A DNA stretch of 64,000 nucleotides, taken from NCBI RefSeq assembly GCF_019823065.1, contig NZ_CP081966.1:954001-1018000 (forward strand), read 5' to 3'. The notes under the pieces are model-generated. The model was not told the origin of the DNA and did not search any database. It worked only from the letters and a program-made list of their open reading frames with translations. This document shows, one piece after another, positions 20,721-29,792 of the stretch (positions within the stretch are counted from its first letter, which is position 1; each line of letters starts with the position of its first letter). This stretch comes from Pseudomonas mosselii. Lineage in GTDB: Bacteria > Pseudomonadota > Gammaproteobacteria > Pseudomonadales > Pseudomonadaceae. The translations under genes and the position numbers were made by a program.

Positions 20721-21929
20721 TCAGATCAGGCTACCCAACTGGAAGATCGGCAAGTACATCGCCACGACAAGGCCCCCCACCAGCAGCCCGAGGATCAGCA
20801 CGATGGCCGGCTCCAGCAGCGTGGTCAACTGCTCCAGCGCCTGGCTCACCTGCTCTTCGTAATGTAGCGCGGCCTTGTCCAGCATGGTGTCGAGGGTGCC
20901 GCTGGCCTCGCCGACCGCCACCAGCTGGCGCAGCAGCGGCGGGAACAGCCCGTCCGCCTCCATTGCCTGTTGCAGGCTCGCCCCATTGGCCACGCCCTGG
21001 CGCAACGCCAGGATCGCCCGTTCATGCAGGCAGTTGCCACTGACCGGCGCCACCGTTGCCAGCGCATCCAGCAATGCAACGCCCGCTGTATAAGAAGTCG
21101 CCAGGCTGCGCGCAAACCGCGCCAACGCCGCCTGCCCGAGCAAGGTGCCAACCACCGGCACCCGCAGCCCCCAGCGCACCATCCACAGGCGCGCCGGCAA
21201 GTGCCGCCGATAAACCTCCCGCCCGCCAACCCCCAACACAGTTATCAACAGCACCAGCCACCCCACGTGATTGCCCAGCCCTGTGGATAAATCGATCACC
21301 CATTGCGTGAACGCCGGCAGCGCCTTGTCGAAACTGGCGAACAGCCCCTGAAAGCGCGGCACCACCTCCAACAGCAACAACGCCGCCACCCCGAGCCCGG
21401 TCAGCAGCAACAGCGCCGGATACAGCATCGCCTTGCGCACCTTCTGCCGCAGCGCCTGGCGCTTCTCCAGCATCCCCGCCATCTGCTCCAGCTGCCGGTC
21501 CAGCGTGCCCGACTGCTCGCCCACCCGCACCAGGTTGCAGTACAGCGCATCGAACCACGCCGGATGCCGCTGCAACGCCTCCGCCAGCCCAAGCCCCGCC
21601 GCCACATCCTGTTTCAGCCGCGCCAGCAACGCCGCCATGCCGCTGTCCACCGTGCTGCGCGCCATCACCTCGAACGCCTGCAACAACGGCACCCCTGCCG
21701 TCAGCAAGGTCGCCAGCTGCCGGCTGAACCCCGCTGCATCCGCCTTGCCCGCCCGCTGCGGCCAGCGCCACTGCAACCCGCCCGCCAACCTCACCCGCGT
21801 GGCCCGGATGCCCTGGCGTTGCAGCCAGGCTTGCACGAACGCCGGGCTGCGCCCCGGTTGCTGGCCGTGTTGACGAGCGCCGGAGGCATCGATGCCCTCC
21901 CAGGCGTAGAGGCGGGTAGACGGTGGCAT
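20721..21929 (-). CDS. pilC: Type IV pilus inner-membrane platform protein PilC
   Basis: Polytopic inner-membrane scaffold of the pilus machine, 402 residues, with two tandem GspF/PilC domains: FSRQLATLLTAGVPLLQAFEVMA (N-terminal repeat) and RFARSLATSYTAGVALLDALATVAP (C-terminal repeat), three membrane segments and the ending LLEPAIVLILGLLVGGLVVAMYLPIFQLGSLI. ATG 21929 (MPPSTRLYAWEG) has AGGAC about 9 bases upstream and fits the family N-terminus better than an in-frame ATG 81 bases earlier. The ATPase gene pilB, normally between pilA and pilC, is not present here. Confidence 0.93.
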   Translation of the reverse strand: MPPSTRLYAWEGIDASGARQHGQQPGRSPAFVQAWLQRQGIRATRVRLAGGLQWRWPQRAGKADAAGFSRQLATLLTAGVPLLQAFEVMARSTVDSGMAALLARLKQDVAAGLGLAEALQRHPAWFDALYCNLVRVGEQSGTLDRQLEQMAGMLEKRQALRQKVRKAMLYPALLLLTGLGVAALLLLEVVPRFQGLFASFDKALPAFTQWVIDLSTGLGNHVGWLVLLITVLGVGGREVYRRHLPARLWMVRWGLRVPVVGTLLGQAALARFARSLATSYTAGVALLDALATVAPVSGNCLHERAILALRQGVANGASLQQAMEADGLFPPLLRQLVAVGEASGTLDTMLDKAALHYEEQVSQALEQLTTLLEPAIVLILGLLVGGLVVAMYLPIFQLGSLI

Positions 21930-22156
21930 GCGGAGGTCCTTTGCAGTGCGGCGACAAGCCCCGTAACAGCTTGCCGTGCCCGAGGCCGGGCGCGTTTCCA
22001 TGACGCTCACTAGAGTAGTTCAGCGAAGATGACGCCCTGCCGTGCAGGGGTGACAAAAGGTGTCGGTTCAGGCCTACTGCGCGCCTGCCGGCCGGGGCGC
22101 AACCCAAGATGCAATGCGCCGACCGCGCCTCCATGTATTACGAAGGAAGACCGTTC

Positions 22157-22567
22157 ATGAAAGGGCAACGAGGTATTACCCTGATCGAACTGATGATCGT
22201 CGTCGCGATCATCGGCATCCTGGCGACCATCGCCATCCCCATGTACACCAACCACCAGGCCCGCGCCAAAGCCGCCGCGGCGCTGCTGGAAATCTCCGCG
22301 CTGAAAACGCCGATGGACATCCGCCTGAACGAAGGCAAGGACGTGCCCGACGTCGCCAGCCTCGGCGGCCAGCCCGCCACCGCCCATTGCGCGATCACCG
22401 CCAGCGGCACGGCGGCCGACGGCACCGCCAGCATTGCGTGCACCCTGGCCGACGCACCGGCCAATGTCCTGGGCAAGACCGTGACCCTGGCCCGCACCCA
22501 GGCGGGGTGGAGCTGCGTGACCACGGTGGAGGAAGACCTCGCGCCGAATGGCTGCAAGGGGCAGTGA
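22157..22567 (+). CDS. pilA: Type IV pilin, PilA-like major pilin
   Basis: Structural pilin, 136 residues. [30 protein letters not shown] is a canonical class III signal with Glu at mature position 5 and the long N-terminal helix; cysteines near the C-terminus ([15 protein letters not shown]) form the usual D-loop disulfide. ATG 22157 follows an AAGGAAGA ribosome-binding site. It is divergent from pilC. No sigma-54 (-24/-12) site could be recognised upstream, unlike P. aeruginosa pilA. tRNA-Thr follows 58 bases after the stop. Confidence 0.92.
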
Positions 22568-22625: not shown

Positions 22626-22701
22626 GCCGGTGTAGCTCAGTCGGTAGAGCAGCGCACTCGTAACGCGAAGGTCGCAGGTTCGATTCCTGTCTCCGGCACC
22701 A
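22626..22701 (+). tRNA. tRNA-Thr (CGT), probable island attachment site
   Basis: Complete 76-nt tRNA: acceptor GCCGGTG paired imperfectly with TCTCCGGC, D arm AGCTCAGTCGGTAGAGC, anticodon loop CTCGTAA with anticodon CGT, T arm GGTTCGATTCC and an encoded CCA. Its 3' segment TTCCTGTCTCCG (22684-22695) recurs at 29012-29023, which is the pattern left by integration at a tRNA 3' end. Confidence 0.95.
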
Positions 22702-22710
22702 GAAATCAAG

Positions 22711-22738
22711 AAGGCTTGCAGCGATGCAGGCCTTTTTT
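22711..22738 (+). terminator. Terminator after tRNA-Thr
   Basis: AAGGCTTGCA (22711-22720), GCGA loop, TGCAGGCCTT (22725-22734), then T-run. A 10-bp stem with one G-U pair. Confidence 0.9.
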
Positions 22739-23194
22739 GTGTCTTGGAAAAGGCGATAGGCCCAGGGCAAGGCGAGTCGCCCGCTGAAACAAATTACCGA
22801 GTACTGGTGGTTTGACCTATCCAGGCAAATCTTCGAGAATGAGCACCGAGGACTGCAACCGCGCATGTTTGGGCATGGCTTGCCAGTAATTGGCCCCCCG
22901 AATCCGGCAGCAGTGAAGCTGGCACTCACTGACGTAGGGACAGTCGATAGGCCCCCCCATATGGCCGTTGATTTGACTGGGTTCTGACCTTAAGGATCGT
23001 AGATCCGGAAACTAAAGAATCGCTGCGACTACAGCCTCATTCAAATCCGAAGGCGACCTCAGAAGGGTCGCCTTTTCGTTTGCCCAAATCCATGTTTGGC
23101 GACGGCGACTCATTGTCCTGCCTTTGTCCTGTGAGAAAAATGAATCTGTCCCCATTTTTCCTCAAACGATATGCCCTTCAACCGTCAAACCTCA
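22739..23194. other. Gene-poor left flank of the tRNA-Thr island
   Basis: No convincing gene. Open frames here are antisense readings of the tRNA (a known artefact) or short. A second hairpin with terminator shape lies at 23050-23077 (AAGGCGACC / GGTCGCCTT, then TTTTCG). Its source transcript is unknown. No integrase gene is visible, so if this is an integrated element its integrase has been lost or was supplied in trans. Confidence 0.6.
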
Positions 23195-26100
23195 TTATTC
23201 GAAGCGCTCATCCCTTACTCGGTCGACCCTAGTCTCTCTCTGGCGCTCGCGCGCGACGTCCTGAGCAAGTTCCATCTGGGCCTCGGTTACGAATGGCATA
23301 AGATCAGGAGCAACGTATGGCTCCACCTTGTTCAGCAACTGAGCGTTAGCGTCTATAATCGATGCACGAGAGCCGATCCAACTCATTGGCCGGAATCGAT
23401 TGATGAATACCTCCAGCACGCTTCTTGGATTGGGCGCCCTGGTCAGAATCGACTGCGCTTGCTCAGACCACTCCAAGGTATCACCTGCTTCCGAGCAGCG
23501 CGCAAATGTGACAATCGAAGCCATAAGCGGGTAGCGGCGACCTGGATCTTGTTCACACCAAGCCACCATCTCATCGCAAGGGATCCTATCGGCTGGGCTT
23601 TTTCGGTGGCGTCCTAGGCGGTAAAACACACTTGTGGTCACTACTTTTTCTAGTGATTCATCCGAGAATAATGAATCTAAAACTGCTGCCGGCTGGCACT
23701 CGAGCAGCGCCGCGAGTAAGTCGTCGTGATCAAATACAGAAATCTCGTGGTTAGTTATGGCCTGTAGGATTCGAGTTGAGACTTCGGCAGCGGTTGAATA
23801 ATCCTCTGAAGTTACGAGGCTAACCTTCACAATATCGGAAAGTTGGCGATCTCTTCGATGATTGATGTTTTTCCGGAATTTTATACGCTGGAGCAGCTCT
23901 TTACCGGTCTCGATGAGTTCCGGTTCATGTTTCCGCTTAGCAGATCGGTCCGAGTATAGACGCATTGAAAGCACTTCCAGCGCTACATCGAACCCTTCAG
24001 GTTGATCGGCAATTCGGACGAGTAAGCCATTGAGCACCCGACCTTCCAAATGGTCAGTGATCCGTCCGTACGCAAAGTGCTGGAACATCTGAACGGGCAC
24101 TTTCCCAGCGGTCAATGCGCGATTCAACTGATCAATACTATGCTCATCAAGTCCCACGGACGAATGCAATAACGGGAGGTACGCTTGCAACGGAGGTTGG
24201 TTGGGCACCGAGTTAAGAATGTGTTGTGCGATTTTCTTGTTGTTTTCCCCGAGCTCGGCTAGGAAGCCACGTAGCACCTGGACGTCTTGCTGCTCGGAAG
24301 AAACCTGCTCCAAACCTTGGATGAGCCTTATCCATGTGCTTTGTGGGTCGGAGGACGCTGCGGCAAGCCCGCGACCGAACGACCAGGTTCTACTTCCACC
24401 ACGGAGGACGTCAGGTAGGATCTCTGCAAATACTGATTCATCACCGGCCACTGCTGTACCAAGCTGGCGCGCGGCTGCCTCCATGCACGCATGGGCCTTT
24501 ACCGGGTCATAATCATCGTCCAGCTCCTGGAAGTCGAGGCCACCAGACTTACCACCCAAAACGACTGCTTTCACTTGCGCCGAAAGGCCAGTAGGTTTTA
24601 GGTCCGCCTCGAGGATAGATAGCTGAGAGAAAGCCTCAGGTGTCATGTGCTCCCTGTCGAAATACATTGTCTCACGGCAGGCCGTCCAACCCTCAAGCCA
24701 AAATCCGTCAATGGCAAACCAACGAAATAGCTTTCCAAGCTCTTCTTCGATATTGGTTGAAGTCCACAGTCCGCGAAAGCTTCTCGCCAATAGGTCACGC
24801 AAGTGGAGTTCAATCCCGGCTTCAGACATTGCCAAGCGCTCAACAACCGCGAGGCAACCCTTGTACCATCGAACTGCGTCCTCTTCGCTTCGAGGCTCGT
24901 AGCCGTAGTTCCGTGAGCGAGCTCCAAACTCAAATTTATAGTGGGAACCGAATTCTGTTGACTCAAGCATCCTCTCCAGAGCAGCCAAGCCCAGAGCACG
25001 CACCTTTTCATCACTGGCGATGAGCAATGGCTCAATCACGCCGAGGCGTTGTTCGAGGGTTGCGTGCGTTCCCGAAAGATAGATTGTAAACAGAGACGTG
25101 AAAGTGTCCGATGTTTCCTTCGCCTCCTGCTCATTTGCGTTTCGCGTCGCGGCCAATATCAGTAATTGGGTGCTTCGCTCAAACAGCGGTGAGTCATAAG
25201 CGAAAGAGCGCAGCAAGGATTGATGCCGTCGCCACGCTTTAGTTGCCTCATCAGCGCCGCAGCTACCAGCACGTTCTAATGCCGCAAGCGCCGCCTCCGG
25301 CTGCACTGAGGCAACGTTCTCAAACATCGTTCGCCCGAGATCATTGAGCGCTATCACGTTCCCTAATAGCCCATCAGGCACGAGCCATCTTTCAACAATG
25401 GCGACTGCTTTGGGATGGTCGTGCAGGAATGACAGTCTGCGCGAAAAGGATCGGGCTAAACGTCCATTCCCACCCTCTATTAGTTGCTGGTTAATGAGAT
25501 CGAAGGGTGTGTCCTCGAGCGCGCGGGCTGCGAGCCGGTTCGCGATAGCATGTGGTAAAACTGCTCGCCAGACCCCACGCTGCTGCACGAGATCACGCCG
25601 GGTCAGCTCGCCAATGTGGCGGTAGGTCTCTGATGCAAGTTGACCGGCAAGCGAGGCCAGTCGAGGCAGCTCAGCCTCCTCACCCTCCAGCGCCTCGCCT
25701 TGGAAGGAGTACACGAGCGAGCATGCTTGGGCCGCGAGGAGCAAGGCGTCGTTTGGGTCTTGCCGCTGCCGGAATAGCCGCTGGAAGAGTTGCTCATTCG
25801 ACAGTCCCGAGATCGTGTCCGAGCGTTCAACCGTTTCTGCGAGGGCGATTGCAATGCGGGCATTACCGCCGGATGTTTCGGCGATGGTGCGCGCGTCTAT
25901 CTGAGACAGGTACAGATAACGGCGCCGAAGCAACTGCTCAATTAGCTCGTGCGAAGACGTGTCGAGGGTAACGACCTGGGTTCCCTCGGGCTGGTCATCG
26001 CGAATGTCGTACTCGACTGTGAGGACACTGATTGTGCTGGCCTGGTTATTACACAGATCCGAGAGTCTGTGGTGCAGATCCGATGGGCAATTGTCGACAA

Positions 26101-26992
26101 TTAGGATAGCGCGCATTCGGTTCGCTATCAGGTCCGAGGCCAGGCCAGTCGGTTGCGGGTCAGGGTTGTCCGATAAGTTAGTGTAAACGGCCAGAGACGG
26201 CAGTAAGGCACGTGCGCCGAGCCGTGAGTCGAACAAAGCTTGGACTAGTCGGGTCTTCCCAACACCCGATAAGCCAACCAATCGCACTATCTTGCCAGGT
26301 TGTGCCAGTTCGTCGCGTAGTTCGTCTATGACGTGGGCGACTGACTGCGCTGGTGTATCACGGTGCCGGCCAAGGTGAAGCCGCAGTTTGTCATCAAGCA
26401 GATATTCGGCATCGACGCCTTCAGCCGCACCGCTCCAAGGACCATAAGGGCGCCATCCTGATAGAGCCCTACCTACCCTTTCCTTGACCCAGGTGATGAG
26501 GCCAGGGTAACACCTTACCCATGTGGCTAAGCGCGTACGATCATAGAAGTCGGTGTGGAGCTGATCGGCGTTGGCTGTATCGTCAAGTGCTGCGCGCATT
26601 GCACTCCGACGATTGCGAAGGGCGCTGTCGGCCGTTGACCCAGTCGAACTGACAATGACGTAAGCCCCAGCTTCATCCGCAAGCTCTTGTATAACGGGGC
26701 GGAGCACCCCCTTCGGTCGCATTTCGGCAATGATCTCGGCCCTCGGCATATCCGGCTTTTTGACCTGAAATCCCGTTGAACCATGCGGTATGAAGCCTTG
26801 GAGGAGCACTCCTGCCGGCAGCTCTACGCGCACGTCTAGACCGCCGTCCGCTGCCGTCTGATTGCCTCCCCATGTTACCGCCGCAGGGGACAACCCCTGA
26901 CTTATCAACTCGGCCTCGCAGAGACGCCCCACCAGCTCTCGCAGATCGATGTCATTCAACTTATTAATTTCATCAGGGGTGATGTCGAACAT
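23195..26992 (-). CDS. Mrr-like nuclease / STAND ATPase protein (Avs-like anti-phage candidate)
   Basis: A 1265-residue cytoplasmic protein. Residues about 25-115 carry an Mrr-type PD-(D/E)XK pattern: E27, the block ADGGLDVRV (D49, D53) and GFQVKK (Q76, K78), matching the DGG-x-D...QxK core of Mrr endonucleases. Residues 237-250 hold a Walker A loop (VRLVGLSGVGKTRL, G240-T247) and ILIVDN (D300) a Walker B, as in STAND ATPases. From about residue 420 to the end there is only long helical, repeat-like sequence, the usual sensor region of STAND proteins. This order matches Avs systems, in which recognition of a phage protein triggers oligomerisation and DNA cutting. It is somewhat shorter than typical Avs4. 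Codon use is less GC-rich than in the backbone. Family placement is by motif; target and activity are inference. Confidence 0.8.
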   Translation of the reverse strand: MFDITPDEINKLNDIDLRELVGRLCEAELISQGLSPAAVTWGGNQTAADGGLDVRVELPAGVLLQGFIPHGSTGFQVKKPDMPRAEIIAEMRPKGVLRPVIQELADEAGAYVIVSSTGSTADSALRNRRSAMRAALDDTANADQLHTDFYDRTRLATWVRCYPGLITWVKERVGRALSGWRPYGPWSGAAEGVDAEYLLDDKLRLHLGRHRDTPAQSVAHVIDELRDELAQPGKIVRLVGLSGVGKTRLVQALFDSRLGARALLPSLAVYTNLSDNPDPQPTGLASDLIANRMRAILIVDNCPSDLHHRLSDLCNNQASTISVLTVEYDIRDDQPEGTQVVTLDTSSHELIEQLLRRRYLYLSQIDARTIAETSGGNARIAIALAETVERSDTISGLSNEQLFQRLFRQRQDPNDALLLAAQACSLVYSFQGEALEGEEAELPRLASLAGQLASETYRHIGELTRRDLVQQRGVWRAVLPHAIANRLAARALEDTPFDLINQQLIEGGNGRLARSFSRRLSFLHDHPKAVAIVERWLVPDGLLGNVIALNDLGRTMFENVASVQPEAALAALERAGSCGADEATKAWRRHQSLLRSFAYDSPLFERSTQLLILAATRNANEQEAKETSDTFTSLFTIYLSGTHATLEQRLGVIEPLLIASDEKVRALGLAALERMLESTEFGSHYKFEFGARSRNYGYEPRSEEDAVRWYKGCLAVVERLAMSEAGIELHLRDLLARSFRGLWTSTNIEEELGKLFRWFAIDGFWLEGWTACRETMYFDREHMTPEAFSQLSILEADLKPTGLSAQVKAVVLGGKSGGLDFQELDDDYDPVKAHACMEAAARQLGTAVAGDESVFAEILPDVLRGGSRTWSFGRGLAAASSDPQSTWIRLIQGLEQVSSEQQDVQVLRGFLAELGENNKKIAQHILNSVPNQPPLQAYLPLLHSSVGLDEHSIDQLNRALTAGKVPVQMFQHFAYGRITDHLEGRVLNGLLVRIADQPEGFDVALEVLSMRLYSDRSAKRKHEPELIETGKELLQRIKFRKNINHRRDRQLSDIVKVSLVTSEDYSTAAEVSTRILQAITNHEISVFDHDDLLAALLECQPAAVLDSLFSDESLEKVVTTSVFYRLGRHRKSPADRIPCDEMVAWCEQDPGRRYPLMASIVTFARCSEAGDTLEWSEQAQSILTRAPNPRSVLEVFINRFRPMSWIGSRASIIDANAQLLNKVEPYVAPDLMPFVTEAQMELAQDVARERQRETRVDRVRDERFE

Positions 26993-27607
26993 TGTTCTCT
27001 TCTATTTAGCCTAGGGAACGTTCCGCAATTTGCGACACGGTACTGGCTTACGAGCGCAAAGGCCAACACAGTCAAGGAAGAAATCTATCATTAGCCTACG
27101 GAGAGTAAAAAAGGGGTATGGGAATGTTCAATGCTCTCGGGAATGCGTAACACCGATACACTCTATGTTTGCTCGTTACACCCTCGATACTGCAAACAGT
27201 CGCTGCAGTTAAGTGCAGTAAAATCAAAGAGATAGAGTGGCGTGACACCTGAAGCACTTGAAACCCTTACCCGGGCTCACCTCAGGATCTGCCCCCGCCC
27301 AACCATTGGGAAACCTCCAGAGAGAACCGCCTTTGTAAGCAGAGGTGGTGGGTGATGCGTAAGTGGTGCTGGGGACCCTGGGTAAAACTCTGGGGTACGG
27401 TGCAGGAAACCCGCGAAGCTTTGTTAGCGGCTGGTCTGCCAGCTTAGTGAACAGGTGAACCATGGTGAACTGTTCAGGTTCTTGAACACCTCTTAGGTGT
27501 GCGGTTCTTAGGGTTGAAGGTTCCGCTGCGCAGGGGCCTGGCTTCAGATATGCTCGACCTCCAACGGCACGGCAAGGGGCTTGTGCCCAAAACTTGAAGG
27601 TTCATGT
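26993..27607. other. Structured intergenic region between the divergent STAND and HEPN genes
   Basis: No gene is seen. The left third (26993-27235) is AT-rich, with a TGCAG/CTGCA-type hairpin around 27204-27219. The right part (27240-27600) is GC-rich and packed with hairpins: CACCTC 27278-27283 with GAGGTG 27342-27347 enclosing CCCAA/TTGGG (27298-27310); GCTGG/CCAGC (27430-27443); GAACAG/CTGTTC (27449-27475); ACACCT/AGGTGT (27486-27500); GGCAC/GTGCC (about 27566-27587). It may be a long structured leader of the HEPN gene or a separate RNA. Promoters could not be assigned with confidence. Confidence 0.5.
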
Positions 27608-28933
27608 ATGAACGACTCTTTAGCTGACCTGGACACTCTGGTTCTCAGGTGCCGAGCAGAACGTTCAAGAGACTATGTTTCTGAGTCAATTCAGTGTTAC
27701 AAGGCTGGCGCCTATAGGTCGGCTATTGTGAACGTATGGATCGCAGTTGTATTCGATCTTGTGGATAAAATCCGAGATCTTGCGCTTGCGGGCGACGCGA
27801 ACGCTCAGCGTATCAACAATAAATATGAGACCTACATCAACCAGATCAATGCCGGTAATGACCAAGGTGTGAAGAACGCATTGGAGTTTGAGCGGACGAT
27901 TATTCATACATGTGGCATGGAGCTTGGTTTTTTTGATCATCAGCAAGTTCGGGACCTTCAGCGGTTGCGTGAGGATCGGCATCAGTGTGCGCATCCGTCA
28001 TTTCAGTCTGCTGGAATTCCACACCGGCCAAACGCCGAACTTGCTCGGCTGCACCTTCGCAATGCGGTAGAGCACGTCTTGTCTCAGCCTCCAATTCAGG
28101 GGCGTGCTGCGATTGCCGAGTTACTTACCACTATCGCTTCTGATTATTTTCCGAAGGATCACCAACAAGCGACCATCGCTTTACGTCAAACCCCATTAGC
28201 GAATCCTTCCGAGGCTCTCGTTCGTGGCTTGGTCGATTCGCTTATCTTCGGATTTTCTCAGCCTGATAGCCCTGTATTTGGAAAAATCCAGGTCGGTGCT
28301 GTGCTGTCCATTCTTCTTGACTCCCATAGAGCAACCGCTGAGCCCCGAATCTGCCTGCAGTTGAGCACAGTGATTCGACAAATTGGCGACCAGGGTTTGC
28401 CAACCGTTGCCAGATTAGTAGCGACCACTCCCGGCATGGCTGGATTAATTGACGAGGCTGCAACTGTGCGGCTGAATGAATTCCTTCTAGGCGGACCCGA
28501 AGCTGAAGTAATACCCGCCTTGGCAGTGGGGAGGCATCCCAATATGGAAGTGGCAGCAAACCGGCGAATTCAGTCGTTGAGTGTCGACCGACTCTCTAGC
28601 GCAATACGGGACCATGGGTTAGGGGATTTGGTTAAAGCCCAGGCGCTCCAGCTCCTGTCGGAATCACGCAGCTGGCACACGTCAAACGAGGTCATTGAGA
28701 AATTAGTCATTCCGCTGTTTGAGACTCTCACTCGTGCTGATGTAGAGCGGATTATCAGAATGCCTCGTGATACCCGTGCAGACCTGCCAGGCTCTACGAT
28801 GTATGGTCATTTCCTGAGCCAGGTTGATAGCTTGGGCATCCTGCCGGCAGCTGAACTTGATGAGTTAGTGCTCGAGCACAATGGAAGGTATGTGGCGGAC
28901 GACCTTCGACGAGCTCGTGAGCGCGCTGCATAG
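27608..28933 (+). CDS. HEPN-domain protein with RX4H ribonuclease motif and helical C-terminus
   Basis: A 441-residue cytoplasmic protein. The N-terminal about 160 residues look like a HEPN domain: an all-helical stretch with YKAGAYRSAIVNVWIAV (residues 31-47) and the conserved motif R124-HQCA-H129 in LREDRHQCAHPSF. In HEPN toxins and abortive-infection RNases the RX4-6H motif forms the catalytic site. Residues 165-441 are helical repeat-like, with no known signature. ATG 27608 has GAAGG 7 bases upstream; an in-frame start 27 bases earlier lacks one. The base composition is clearly less GC-rich than the backbone. Divergent from the STAND gene. A defence role is inferred from motif and location. 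Confidence 0.75.
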   Translation: MNDSLADLDTLVLRCRAERSRDYVSESIQCYKAGAYRSAIVNVWIAVVFDLVDKIRDLALAGDANAQRINNKYETYINQINAGNDQGVKNALEFERTIIHTCGMELGFFDHQQVRDLQRLREDRHQCAHPSFQSAGIPHRPNAELARLHLRNAVEHVLSQPPIQGRAAIAELLTTIASDYFPKDHQQATIALRQTPLANPSEALVRGLVDSLIFGFSQPDSPVFGKIQVGAVLSILLDSHRATAEPRICLQLSTVIRQIGDQGLPTVARLVATTPGMAGLIDEAATVRLNEFLLGGPEAEVIPALAVGRHPNMEVAANRRIQSLSVDRLSSAIRDHGLGDLVKAQALQLLSESRSWHTSNEVIEKLVIPLFETLTRADVERIIRMPRDTRADLPGSTMYGHFLSQVDSLGILPAAELDELVLEHNGRYVADDLRRARERAA

Positions 28934-29011
28934 CTGAGGGGGGTAGGGATACGCTCTCTGGTTGGCTTGGGGATTTTTCTGAATTTGCTGGCTATATCAG
29001 GTGCAATTTGG

Positions 29012-29023
29012 TTCCTGTCTCCG
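29012..29023. repeat. Possible attachment-site copy of the tRNA-Thr 3' end
   Basis: TTCCTGTCTCCG is identical to 22684-22695 in tRNA-Thr. Flanking bases are also similar (GGTTCCTGTCTCCG-CAC against GATTCCTGTCTCCGGCAC), with one base missing. It lies 78 bases after the HEPN stop and would mark the right end of a 6.3-kb island. Confidence 0.5.
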
Positions 29024-29184
29024 CACTATTCTTCGTATACCTCGATCAAGCCTCGTTCAGCTCCGCCGAACCGGCCTGCTGAGGGGGCTATCTAAGTGCC
29101 CTTGTGTTGTAGGCAGTTTCCCGCAGCATCCATCGCCTTTTCCTAACCATCCTAAGCTTGCATAAGCAGGCCCCAAGGAATAAA

Positions 29185-29280
29185 TTCCCTCCGTCGCCGA
29201 AGCATCGGCGACGCGACCTTGGCCGGTCGGAATCGAAAGGCGCAGCAGCGCCCAGTCTTCATCGCAGGCGCTTTTTTTTG
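29185..29280 (+). ncRNA. Candidate small RNA or leader with terminator
   Basis: A perfect hairpin GTCGCCGA-AGCA-TCGGCGAC (29193-29212) is followed by AGCGCC (29247-29252) pairing with GGCGCT (29267-29272) and a run of eight T (29272-29279), a good intrinsic terminator. Upstream is the palindrome GGAATAAATTCC (29178-29189). No ORF fits, so a short structured transcript ending here is likely; its 5' end is unknown. Confidence 0.5.
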
Positions 29281-29303
29281 TGCCCGCGATGTCGCGTCAT
29301 GGC

Positions 29304-29378
29304 GGTGGTGCGCGGGACACCTTCGGGTGTGCCGGGCCCCTTTCGTCCCGGTCGGCCAACCCGCGTACTGCTGCCACC
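29304..29378 (+). ncRNA. Three-way-junction RNA-like element upstream of a small ORF pair
   Basis: GGTGGTGCGCGGG (29304-29316) can pair with CCCGCG and CTGCCACC (29360-29378), enclosing two hairpins: ACACC-TTCG-GGTGT (29317-29330) and CCGGG...CCCGG (29332-29351). It ends about 55 bases before the first small ORF. I have a memory of similar conserved leaders in pseudomonads (possibly the Rfam C4 antisense RNA class), but this is unverified. Confidence 0.45.
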
Positions 29379-29431
29379 TAAACTTGCTTGGCCGCGAGCG
29401 GTGGCAGTTCCACAACGAAAGGAACTCATGC

Positions 29432-29569
29432 ATGACCACCAAGATACTGAGGATCCTCGCATCCGCTCTCCGCCGCCCAACCCCCGCGGCCACCCCATCC
29501 CCAACCTTCTACCCAATCGACAGCCACTCCCTCGCCACCCGCGCCAACCGGAAGGTGCCCCATGCCTGA
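29432..29569 (+). CDS. Small 45-residue protein upstream of a coupled ORF
   Basis: MTTKILRILASALRRPTPAA... is a short basic, proline-rich peptide with an AAAGGA ribosome-binding site just upstream of ATG 29432. Its stop overlaps the start of the next small ORF by 8 bases, which suggests it serves as a leader or a translationally coupled partner. No family is recognised; the amphipathic N-terminus (KILRILASALRR) could touch membranes. Confidence rests on the ribosome-binding site, the overlap and the structured RNA upstream. Confidence 0.5.
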   Translation: MTTKILRILASALRRPTPAATPSPTFYPIDSHSLATRANRKVPHA

Positions 29570-29792
29570 CCATGAACGCCTGTCTACCCTCCAGAGCTAC
29601 GTCTGGACCCTCGAACTGCTCGGCGAGGCGCTGGTGCAGCATGACGAGGTGCTGGAGTGCGAGCACAACCCGCAACTGAGCTTCCGCAACACAGCGGGTA
29701 TTCACCAAGCGATCCGAATCATCAGCCGGTTGGCCAGCGAGCAGTTCGGCAAGCTGGAGGCGATGAAAGACGAGAGTGTTTCCGAAGACTGA
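29562..29792 (+). CDS. Conserved small helical protein of unknown function
   Basis: A 76-residue protein, acidic and helical throughout (RLSTLQSYVWTLELLGEALVQHDEVLECEHN, then AGIHQAIRIISRLASEQFGKLEAMKDE), with no membrane segment or signal. It starts inside the end of the preceding 45-codon ORF, so translation is probably coupled. I have seen similar small-protein pairs in pseudomonads but cannot name the family. The upstream element at 29304-29378 may control this pair. Confidence 0.65.
   Translation: MPDHERLSTLQSYVWTLELLGEALVQHDEVLECEHNPQLSFRNTAGIHQAIRIISRLASEQFGKLEAMKDESVSED

Follow-up and report, generated by a model that had tools for sequence, protein, structure and literature searches.

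What does the long gene beside tRNA-Thr encode in a 64,000-nucleotide stretch of the Pseudomonas mosselii genome (contig NZ_CP081966.1, positions 954,001 to 1,018,000; hereafter the window), and could its product defend the cell against phages? A preliminary description of this DNA had proposed that a single gene joins a nuclease of the Mrr type to a STAND ATPase and a long helical C-terminal part, in the manner of the Avs antiviral proteins. Our analysis supports this anatomy, and finds that the protein is, by its sequence, a full-length homologue of gene A of PD-λ-4, an already catalogued defence family. We think it probable that this stand-alone gene A product, NLR-like by its predicted fold, senses a phage protein, switches and oligomerises, likely cuts DNA, and likely stops infection at the cost of the cell.

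PD-λ-4 is credited to Vassallo et al. 2022 (PMC9519451) by a review table (PMC10952713) that places it under P-loop NTPase and not under PD-(D/E)XK nuclease. Every system in the source paper is reported there to have lowered plating of the phage used to select it (PMC9519451). The descriptions available to us catalogue PD-λ-4 as two genes with one P-loop domain and state no mechanism; the Mrr domain and the solenoid of gene A are described in the present analysis.

The gene and its family

23195..26992, minus strand: PD-Lambda-4_A family gene encoding a single-gene Mrr-STAND-solenoid protein of 1265 aa (open reading frame and PADLOC model PDLC03991).

The open reading frame (ORF) is intact, starts with ATG and encodes 1265 aa. 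The PADLOC model PDLC03991 (PD-Lambda-4_A) matches the protein with 1067 bits (E 0), aligning residues 1-1265 with profile positions 3-1283, so that the homology to gene A extends over the full length. When the protein was scanned against PADLOC at E ≤ 10, a scan run without a known Avs protein as positive control, only PD-Lambda-4_A models matched, and the same was true of four weak distant relatives. A protein database search returned 4596 homologues at E ≤ 0.001 among 7997 scored candidates, and with homologues this plentiful the ORF is far beyond chance. The closest named homologue, from P. putida, is 92% identical, and the 120 homologues listed have lengths of 1228-1308 aa and identities of 61-92%. 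The top score against the PD-Lambda-4_A model among the proteins scanned (2525 bits) belongs to an E. coli protein, L132, which shares the Mrr, Walker and C-terminal residues of the window protein and falls in a different clade of the tree. We infer that L132 is the very locus tested in Vassallo et al. 2022.

There were 440 confirmed relatives in named genomes. The loci of the best 80 of these were fetched, together with 17 from viral contigs, giving 97 loci, several of them clipped by contig ends. For alignment 76 were chosen, partial and redundant ones being omitted; of these, L133 was removed and the other 75 passed the stop check. Alignments A2 and A3 contain 81 rows each and A4 contains 49. 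Relatives placed in the tree are labelled Pseudomonadota, Acidobacteriota, Planctomycetota, Chloroflexota, Bacillota, Bacteroidota, Nitrospirota, Thermodesulfobacteriota, Myxococcota and Cloacimonadota, and a plasmid search counted two Haloarcula records among the gene A matches. Within the same genus, a term used throughout for the search tool's own grouping of genomes, gene A was matched in 16 of 398 genomes at E ≤ 0.001, and 11 of these hold 12 full-length loci. Gene A had no match in 50,697 phage records, its DNA had none in E. coli genomes, and searches of PDB sequences with the window protein returned nothing below E 0.01.

Domain organisation of the protein

26453..26992, minus strand: N-terminal Mrr-type PD-(D/E)XK effector domain, predicted, residues ~1-180 (D49-G-G-x-D53, Q76-x-K78), from conservation, profile-profile match and model.
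25793..26434, minus strand: STAND NTPase, predicted, residues ~187-400 (Walker A 240-247, Walker B to D300).
25493..25792, minus strand: winged-helix-like linker, residues ~401-500, with the family motif LPHAIANRLA, from a conserved block and the model.
23198..25492, minus strand: HEAT/ARM-like alpha-solenoid, residues ~501-1265, predicted sensor.
23198..23203, minus strand: conserved C-terminal Phe-Glu, residues 1264-1265, from counts in aligned and fetched proteins.

The motifs on which the preliminary description relied, DGGxD at 49-53, QxK at 76-78, Walker A at 240-247 and Walker B at about 296-300, were all recovered at these positions, and they vary little or not at all across 26 aligned homologues and 81 N-terminal halves. 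Residues 1-180 were compared, profile against profile, with Mrr_cat proteins of relatives; 22 places were found for this set and 17 taken, of which two had no usable piece, so that 15 were used. The comparison gave a score of 29.4 (P 3.2e-4), pairing DGGLD with DGGID and QVK with QAK. This score exceeds those of all 59 column shuffles (maximum 18.1) and of the reversed alignment (10.7). In the predicted model the domain has the order alpha-beta-beta-beta-alpha-beta, and thus residues 1-180 show the catalytic D...D...QxK series on the core topology of an Mrr-type PD-(D/E)XK nuclease. Judged by sequence, this region carries the catalytic residues of such a nuclease and likely cuts DNA.

The N half was modelled with a predicted local distance difference test (pLDDT) value of 88 and is predicted to be that of a STAND/NLR protein. 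Walker A reads G240-x4-GKT247, Walker B ends at D300, and a helical, winged-helix-like part follows within a STAND-type fold. The structure comparison with Avs4 suggested in the preliminary description points the same way, as Foldseek ranks only STAND proteins among the top six matches of the N half, namely 6mfv, two Avs4 chains (8dgf) and three NOD2 chains; 8dgf is the second match, with E 1.4e-7. The linker of residues 401-500 is a conserved block in which the model shows helices and a beta hairpin, and "winged helix" is our own reading of that model.

The long helical C-terminus noted earlier is borne out by the model, in which residues 491-1265 are nearly all helical with a mean pLDDT of 93. 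In fold searches the C half resembles HEAT/ARM solenoids, and its alignment columns average 40% identity. Phe-Glu (FE) forms the very end of the window protein; 71 of 73 aligned rows and 236 of 240 fetched proteins have this pair within their final four residues, and the divergent L028 is without it.

Avs4 carries a nuclease of the Mrr type, a STAND ATPase and C-terminal repeats on a single chain, an arrangement also predicted for the window protein. Models and fold searches place all the parts by which an Avs protein is recognised, an effector, a STAND ATPase and a C-terminal repeat sensor, in the single chain studied here. It differs from Avs4 (8dgf), whose chains have 1534-1541 residues, in sharing only 10% identity in the fold alignment, and in a C half that matches HEAT/ARM folds; Avs4 is absent from the best 50 matches of the solenoid in either fold search. 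An assignment to Avs4 proper was rejected on these grounds, the low identity and the other matches of the C half. The likeness to Avs4 holds for the N half, through the 8dgf match; the family itself had already been catalogued as PD-λ-4 gene A. The suspicion that the protein, being shorter than Avs4, is a distinct subfamily proved sound, for it belongs to a family of its own and is not a short Avs4.

Other Avs proteins provide further comparison. Avs1-4 cleave phage and host genomes on recognising terminase, portal or another phage protein, according to the introduction of PMC12931631. Avs5, the subject of that paper, is likewise a tripartite Pseudomonas STAND defence that senses a phage protein, but its effector is a SIR2 NADase and its repeats are TPR, Sel1 or PPR (PMC12931631).

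Exchange of the N-terminal effector

The N-terminal effector of this family is exchangeable, the nuclease being swapped for an α/β-hydrolase on the same core. In a TBLASTN search of plasmids, two records (L144 and L145) matched the window protein only from residue 168 onward. Their proteins, of 1375 and 1376 aa, carry an α/β-hydrolase of the DUF676/Abhydrolase_6 type ahead of the same ATPase-solenoid core; among PADLOC defence models, the hydrolase part matches DUF626_VIII in both proteins and LmuA in one. A search with this core found 1231 proteins. Of the 120 listed, a catalytic-serine motif near the N-terminus marks 59 and DGGxD 45; the remaining 16, several of them short, show neither.

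A tree of 73 rows, hand-picked for spread, was built from 58 Mrr-type and 15 hydrolase-type rows. D49, D53, Q76 and K78 are present in all 58 Mrr-type rows; D53, Q76 and K78 occur in none of the 15 hydrolase-type rows and D49 in two, whereas K246, N301, C302, Y328 and G376 are found in all 73 and FE in 15 of 15 hydrolase-type rows. Nuclease residues confined to Mrr-type rows, with core residues and FE common to both, form the pattern expected of a replaceable N-terminal effector. Moreover, the retention of FE in every hydrolase-type row suggests that its role more likely lies with the core than with the effector. In the FastTree tree of the 73 rows the hydrolase forms are nested in an Mrr clade and two effector changes are required. 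The idea of at least two swaps is weakened by a maximum-likelihood tree of 40 chosen rows, which places the hydrolase forms on one side of a branch with a support of 77 (not starred) and needs one change.

The principle of an exchangeable effector is not new, since Rousset et al. 2022 (PMC9122126) note that STAND proteins in cos-adjacent P4/P2 hotspots can exchange their N-termini, which are TIR, SIR2 or nuclease (Mrr_cat, BpuSI_N) domains. The α/β-hydrolase effector found here is an addition to their set.

Gene B and other neighbours

In E. coli, gene B lies 45 bases downstream of L132 on the same strand, so that locus L132/L146 has both A and B. Of 5426 E. coli genomes, 158 contain a match to this A+B stretch, and in 131 the match covers ≥ 80% of the query. 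The window locus differs from this arrangement. Gene B (PDLC03992) was not found in the host genome, and it stands beside A in only one of the 97 fetched loci, the E. coli type, in a BLASTP search with one B query that may miss distant B proteins. Among the 398 same-genus genomes B occurs in 15, two of which also hold A at another place, and it adjoins none of the 12 full-length A loci. The commonest neighbour cluster of gene A reaches 9 of the 97 loci. Gene A thus appears, as far as sequence tells, to have no fixed partner.

Proposed mode of action

In the mechanism that we propose, the C-terminal solenoid would bind a phage protein, the STAND ATPase would then switch and oligomerise, DNA would be cut by the N-terminal domain of Mrr type, and the infected cell would shut down, halting the infection at its own cost. 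Sensing of a phage protein, oligomerisation, DNA cleavage and cell death are suggested by the anatomy of the protein, and phage protection is presumed by analogy with the published E. coli PD-λ-4. If this holds, gene A is an NLR-like sensor-nuclease present across many phyla, and a detection tool that also demands gene B would miss nearly all of its carriers.

Several observations weigh against this assignment. In Pfam the window protein reaches no family at its curated cut-off. The Mrr_cat profile match that had been anticipated did not materialise: at E ≤ 0.01 a set of 49 members hit 15 Pfam families, none of them Mrr_cat, and this profile is also missing from the window protein's own match list at E ≤ 10. 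The profile-profile comparison has a probability of only 38.5% despite its P of 3.2e-4. The STAND matches have low TM-scores (0.23-0.31 by query), and clamp loaders tie with 6mfv by Z (13.1 and 13.7, respectively). Furthermore, B adjoins A in E. coli, where protection might depend on B or even be due to B only. The preliminary description had named the lack of any STAND or PD-(D/E)XK profile match, or of either fold, as the outcome that would speak against it; Pfam alone comes near to that outcome, which the structure model and the profile-profile comparison oppose.

If the effector is granted, its target may be the phage and not the host. Mrr-type enzymes act on modified DNA, and the domain might cut phage DNA only, for instance modified or replicating DNA, giving a direct, non-suicidal immunity that the host survives. 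Such immunity was given by 7 of the 11 systems in the source paper that have a DNA-binding or cleavage component (PMC9519451). The STAND switch with its Avs4-like layout fits a host-directed effector better, and so does exchange for an α/β-hydrolase, which has no obvious DNA target; we therefore regard direct immunity as unlikely, though it is the foremost of the alternatives. The catalogued system has models for both A and B, adjacent in E. coli, and from this, together with the absence of B from the host genome, one could argue that gene A needs B or some other partner and that the solo gene is an incomplete, inactive PD-λ-4. Against this, B adjoins A in one of 97 loci and in none of the 12 in the same genus, where the 15 genomes with B include two with A elsewhere; the solo A also retains its catalytic residues. 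This explanation seems to us quite improbable. Even less credible is a regulator or housekeeping ATPase outside defence. STAND proteins do include transcription regulators such as MalT, but the patchy distribution of gene A (16 of 398 same-genus genomes, with the 12 full-length loci in 11), its nuclease or hydrolase N-terminus, its island setting and the membership of an E. coli relative in a phage-selected system all speak against this role.

The host-directed sensor-nuclease thus remains our preferred reading of gene A. A bolder proposal can be built on it, to which we give rather little credence: PD-λ-4A may be a separate, widespread single-gene family of bacterial NLRs, in which the FE tail of the HEAT-type sensor serves as an OFF-state latch or as a trigger read by the switch, whichever effector is present (nuclease or α/β-hydrolase), and partner B would be independent cargo of phage cos-flanking hotspots. 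That the FE tail acts as a latch on the switch is our guess.

The island next to tRNA-Thr

22626..22701, plus strand: tRNA-Thr(CGT), likely attachment site and left island border, from ARAGORN and the end of homology to relatives.
28999..29026, no strand assigned: degenerate copy of the tRNA 3' end, likely attR, from local alignment and a deletion shared with the copy in G024.

The gene lies 493 bases from tRNA-Thr(CGT), in a region with a G+C content of 52-57% compared with ~65% in most of the window. Homology to three relatives ends at 22701-22706 (22701, 22702 and 22706) and resumes at 29154-29180, while a fourth relative matches only to 22738. Between these borders the relatives hold ~0.4 kb (G025), 1.9 kb (G045) and 9 kb (G024). 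As the nearly empty site of G025 replaces window positions 22702-29153 by ~0.4 kb, the region is not backbone, in agreement with the preliminary description.

The attR candidate at 28999-29026 has a local alignment score of 26, reached by 12 of 400 random sequences, and is weak alone; a better copy of the tRNA end in the G024 island is missing the same single base, and G025 has none. The island likely spans 22702-29026, ~6.3 kb at the 3' end of tRNA-Thr. Inspection by eye revealed no integrase ORF in it.

At the corresponding site of G024 (L188, 1162-7054) we observed a tyrosine integrase-like ORF, recognised by eye, and a protein matching the PADLOC PDC-S35 and TIR models. The presence of this integrase-like ORF and TIR-type protein indicates that the tRNA-Thr site takes up different cargo.

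The cos-like element and the HEPN-like gene

27369..27472, plus strand: conserved non-coding element, likely a cos-like phage packaging site, from same-genus matches and downstream terminases.
27608..28933, plus strand: HEPN-like protein of 441 aa with the Rx4H motif RHQCAH (by eye), its N-terminus related to PD-T7-3 (PADLOC PDLC04108).

The element sits between gene A and the HEPN gene. At E ≤ 0.001, 46 of 149 same-genus genomes contain a match to it, in some cases a short one, and in the host genome it occurs once; it had no match in plasmids, nor in Rfam at E ≤ 5. Eight of 30 fetched element loci have an ORF of one common cluster downstream, and the two of these that were scanned are both terminase large subunits (phrog_15); the one upstream neighbour scanned is a terminase small subunit (phrog_57). 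Ten proteins lying downstream in other loci or scanned alongside gave PADLOC matches to PD-Lambda-4_B, AbiV (two, weak), PDC-S60 and PDC-S31; five were without a match, and one of these five is a terminase. On the simplest reading, the element is likely a cos or other packaging site of a phage, next to which defence genes accumulate, and it may anchor searches for further cos-flanking defence genes in this genus. PD-Lambda-4_B family genes were also seen near the element without A beside them, in L224 (G036) and L038 (G168).

The window locus shares with the P2/P4 STAND proteins of Rousset et al. (PMC9122126) both the exchangeable effector on a STAND-repeat protein and the hotspot beside a cos site. 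The published set comes from E. coli P2/P4 elements, whereas the element described here is similar to the sequence that precedes phrog_15 terminases in same-genus genomes.

PDLC04108 matches the HEPN-like protein with E 7.7e-30 over residues 17-187 of a 450-aa reading. The gene was matched in 12 of 398 same-genus genomes including its own, one of the others being 79% identical, and is likely the second defence gene of the island. It was rejected as a fixed partner of gene A: the 97 A loci contain no HEPN homologue at E ≤ 1e-3, and a HEPN-related locus (L007) has no A match in 4.3 kb, its genome (G108) lying outside the 16 with an A match.

Two further observations concern the flanks of the island. 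In the adjoining stretch 20721-22567, an ORF that resembles PilC by eye and a pilin gene identified with Pfam are divergent and 98 bases apart, and so have no pilB between them. Just outside the other border, a C4 antisense RNA was detected at 29180-29233 (plus strand; 77 bits, above the cut-off), together with a sub-threshold match to a C4 a1/b1 target at 29295-29381 (plus strand). The stretch 28940-29790, which contains both C4 features, gave matches that mostly cover the C4 part, in 42 of the 76 genomes searched.

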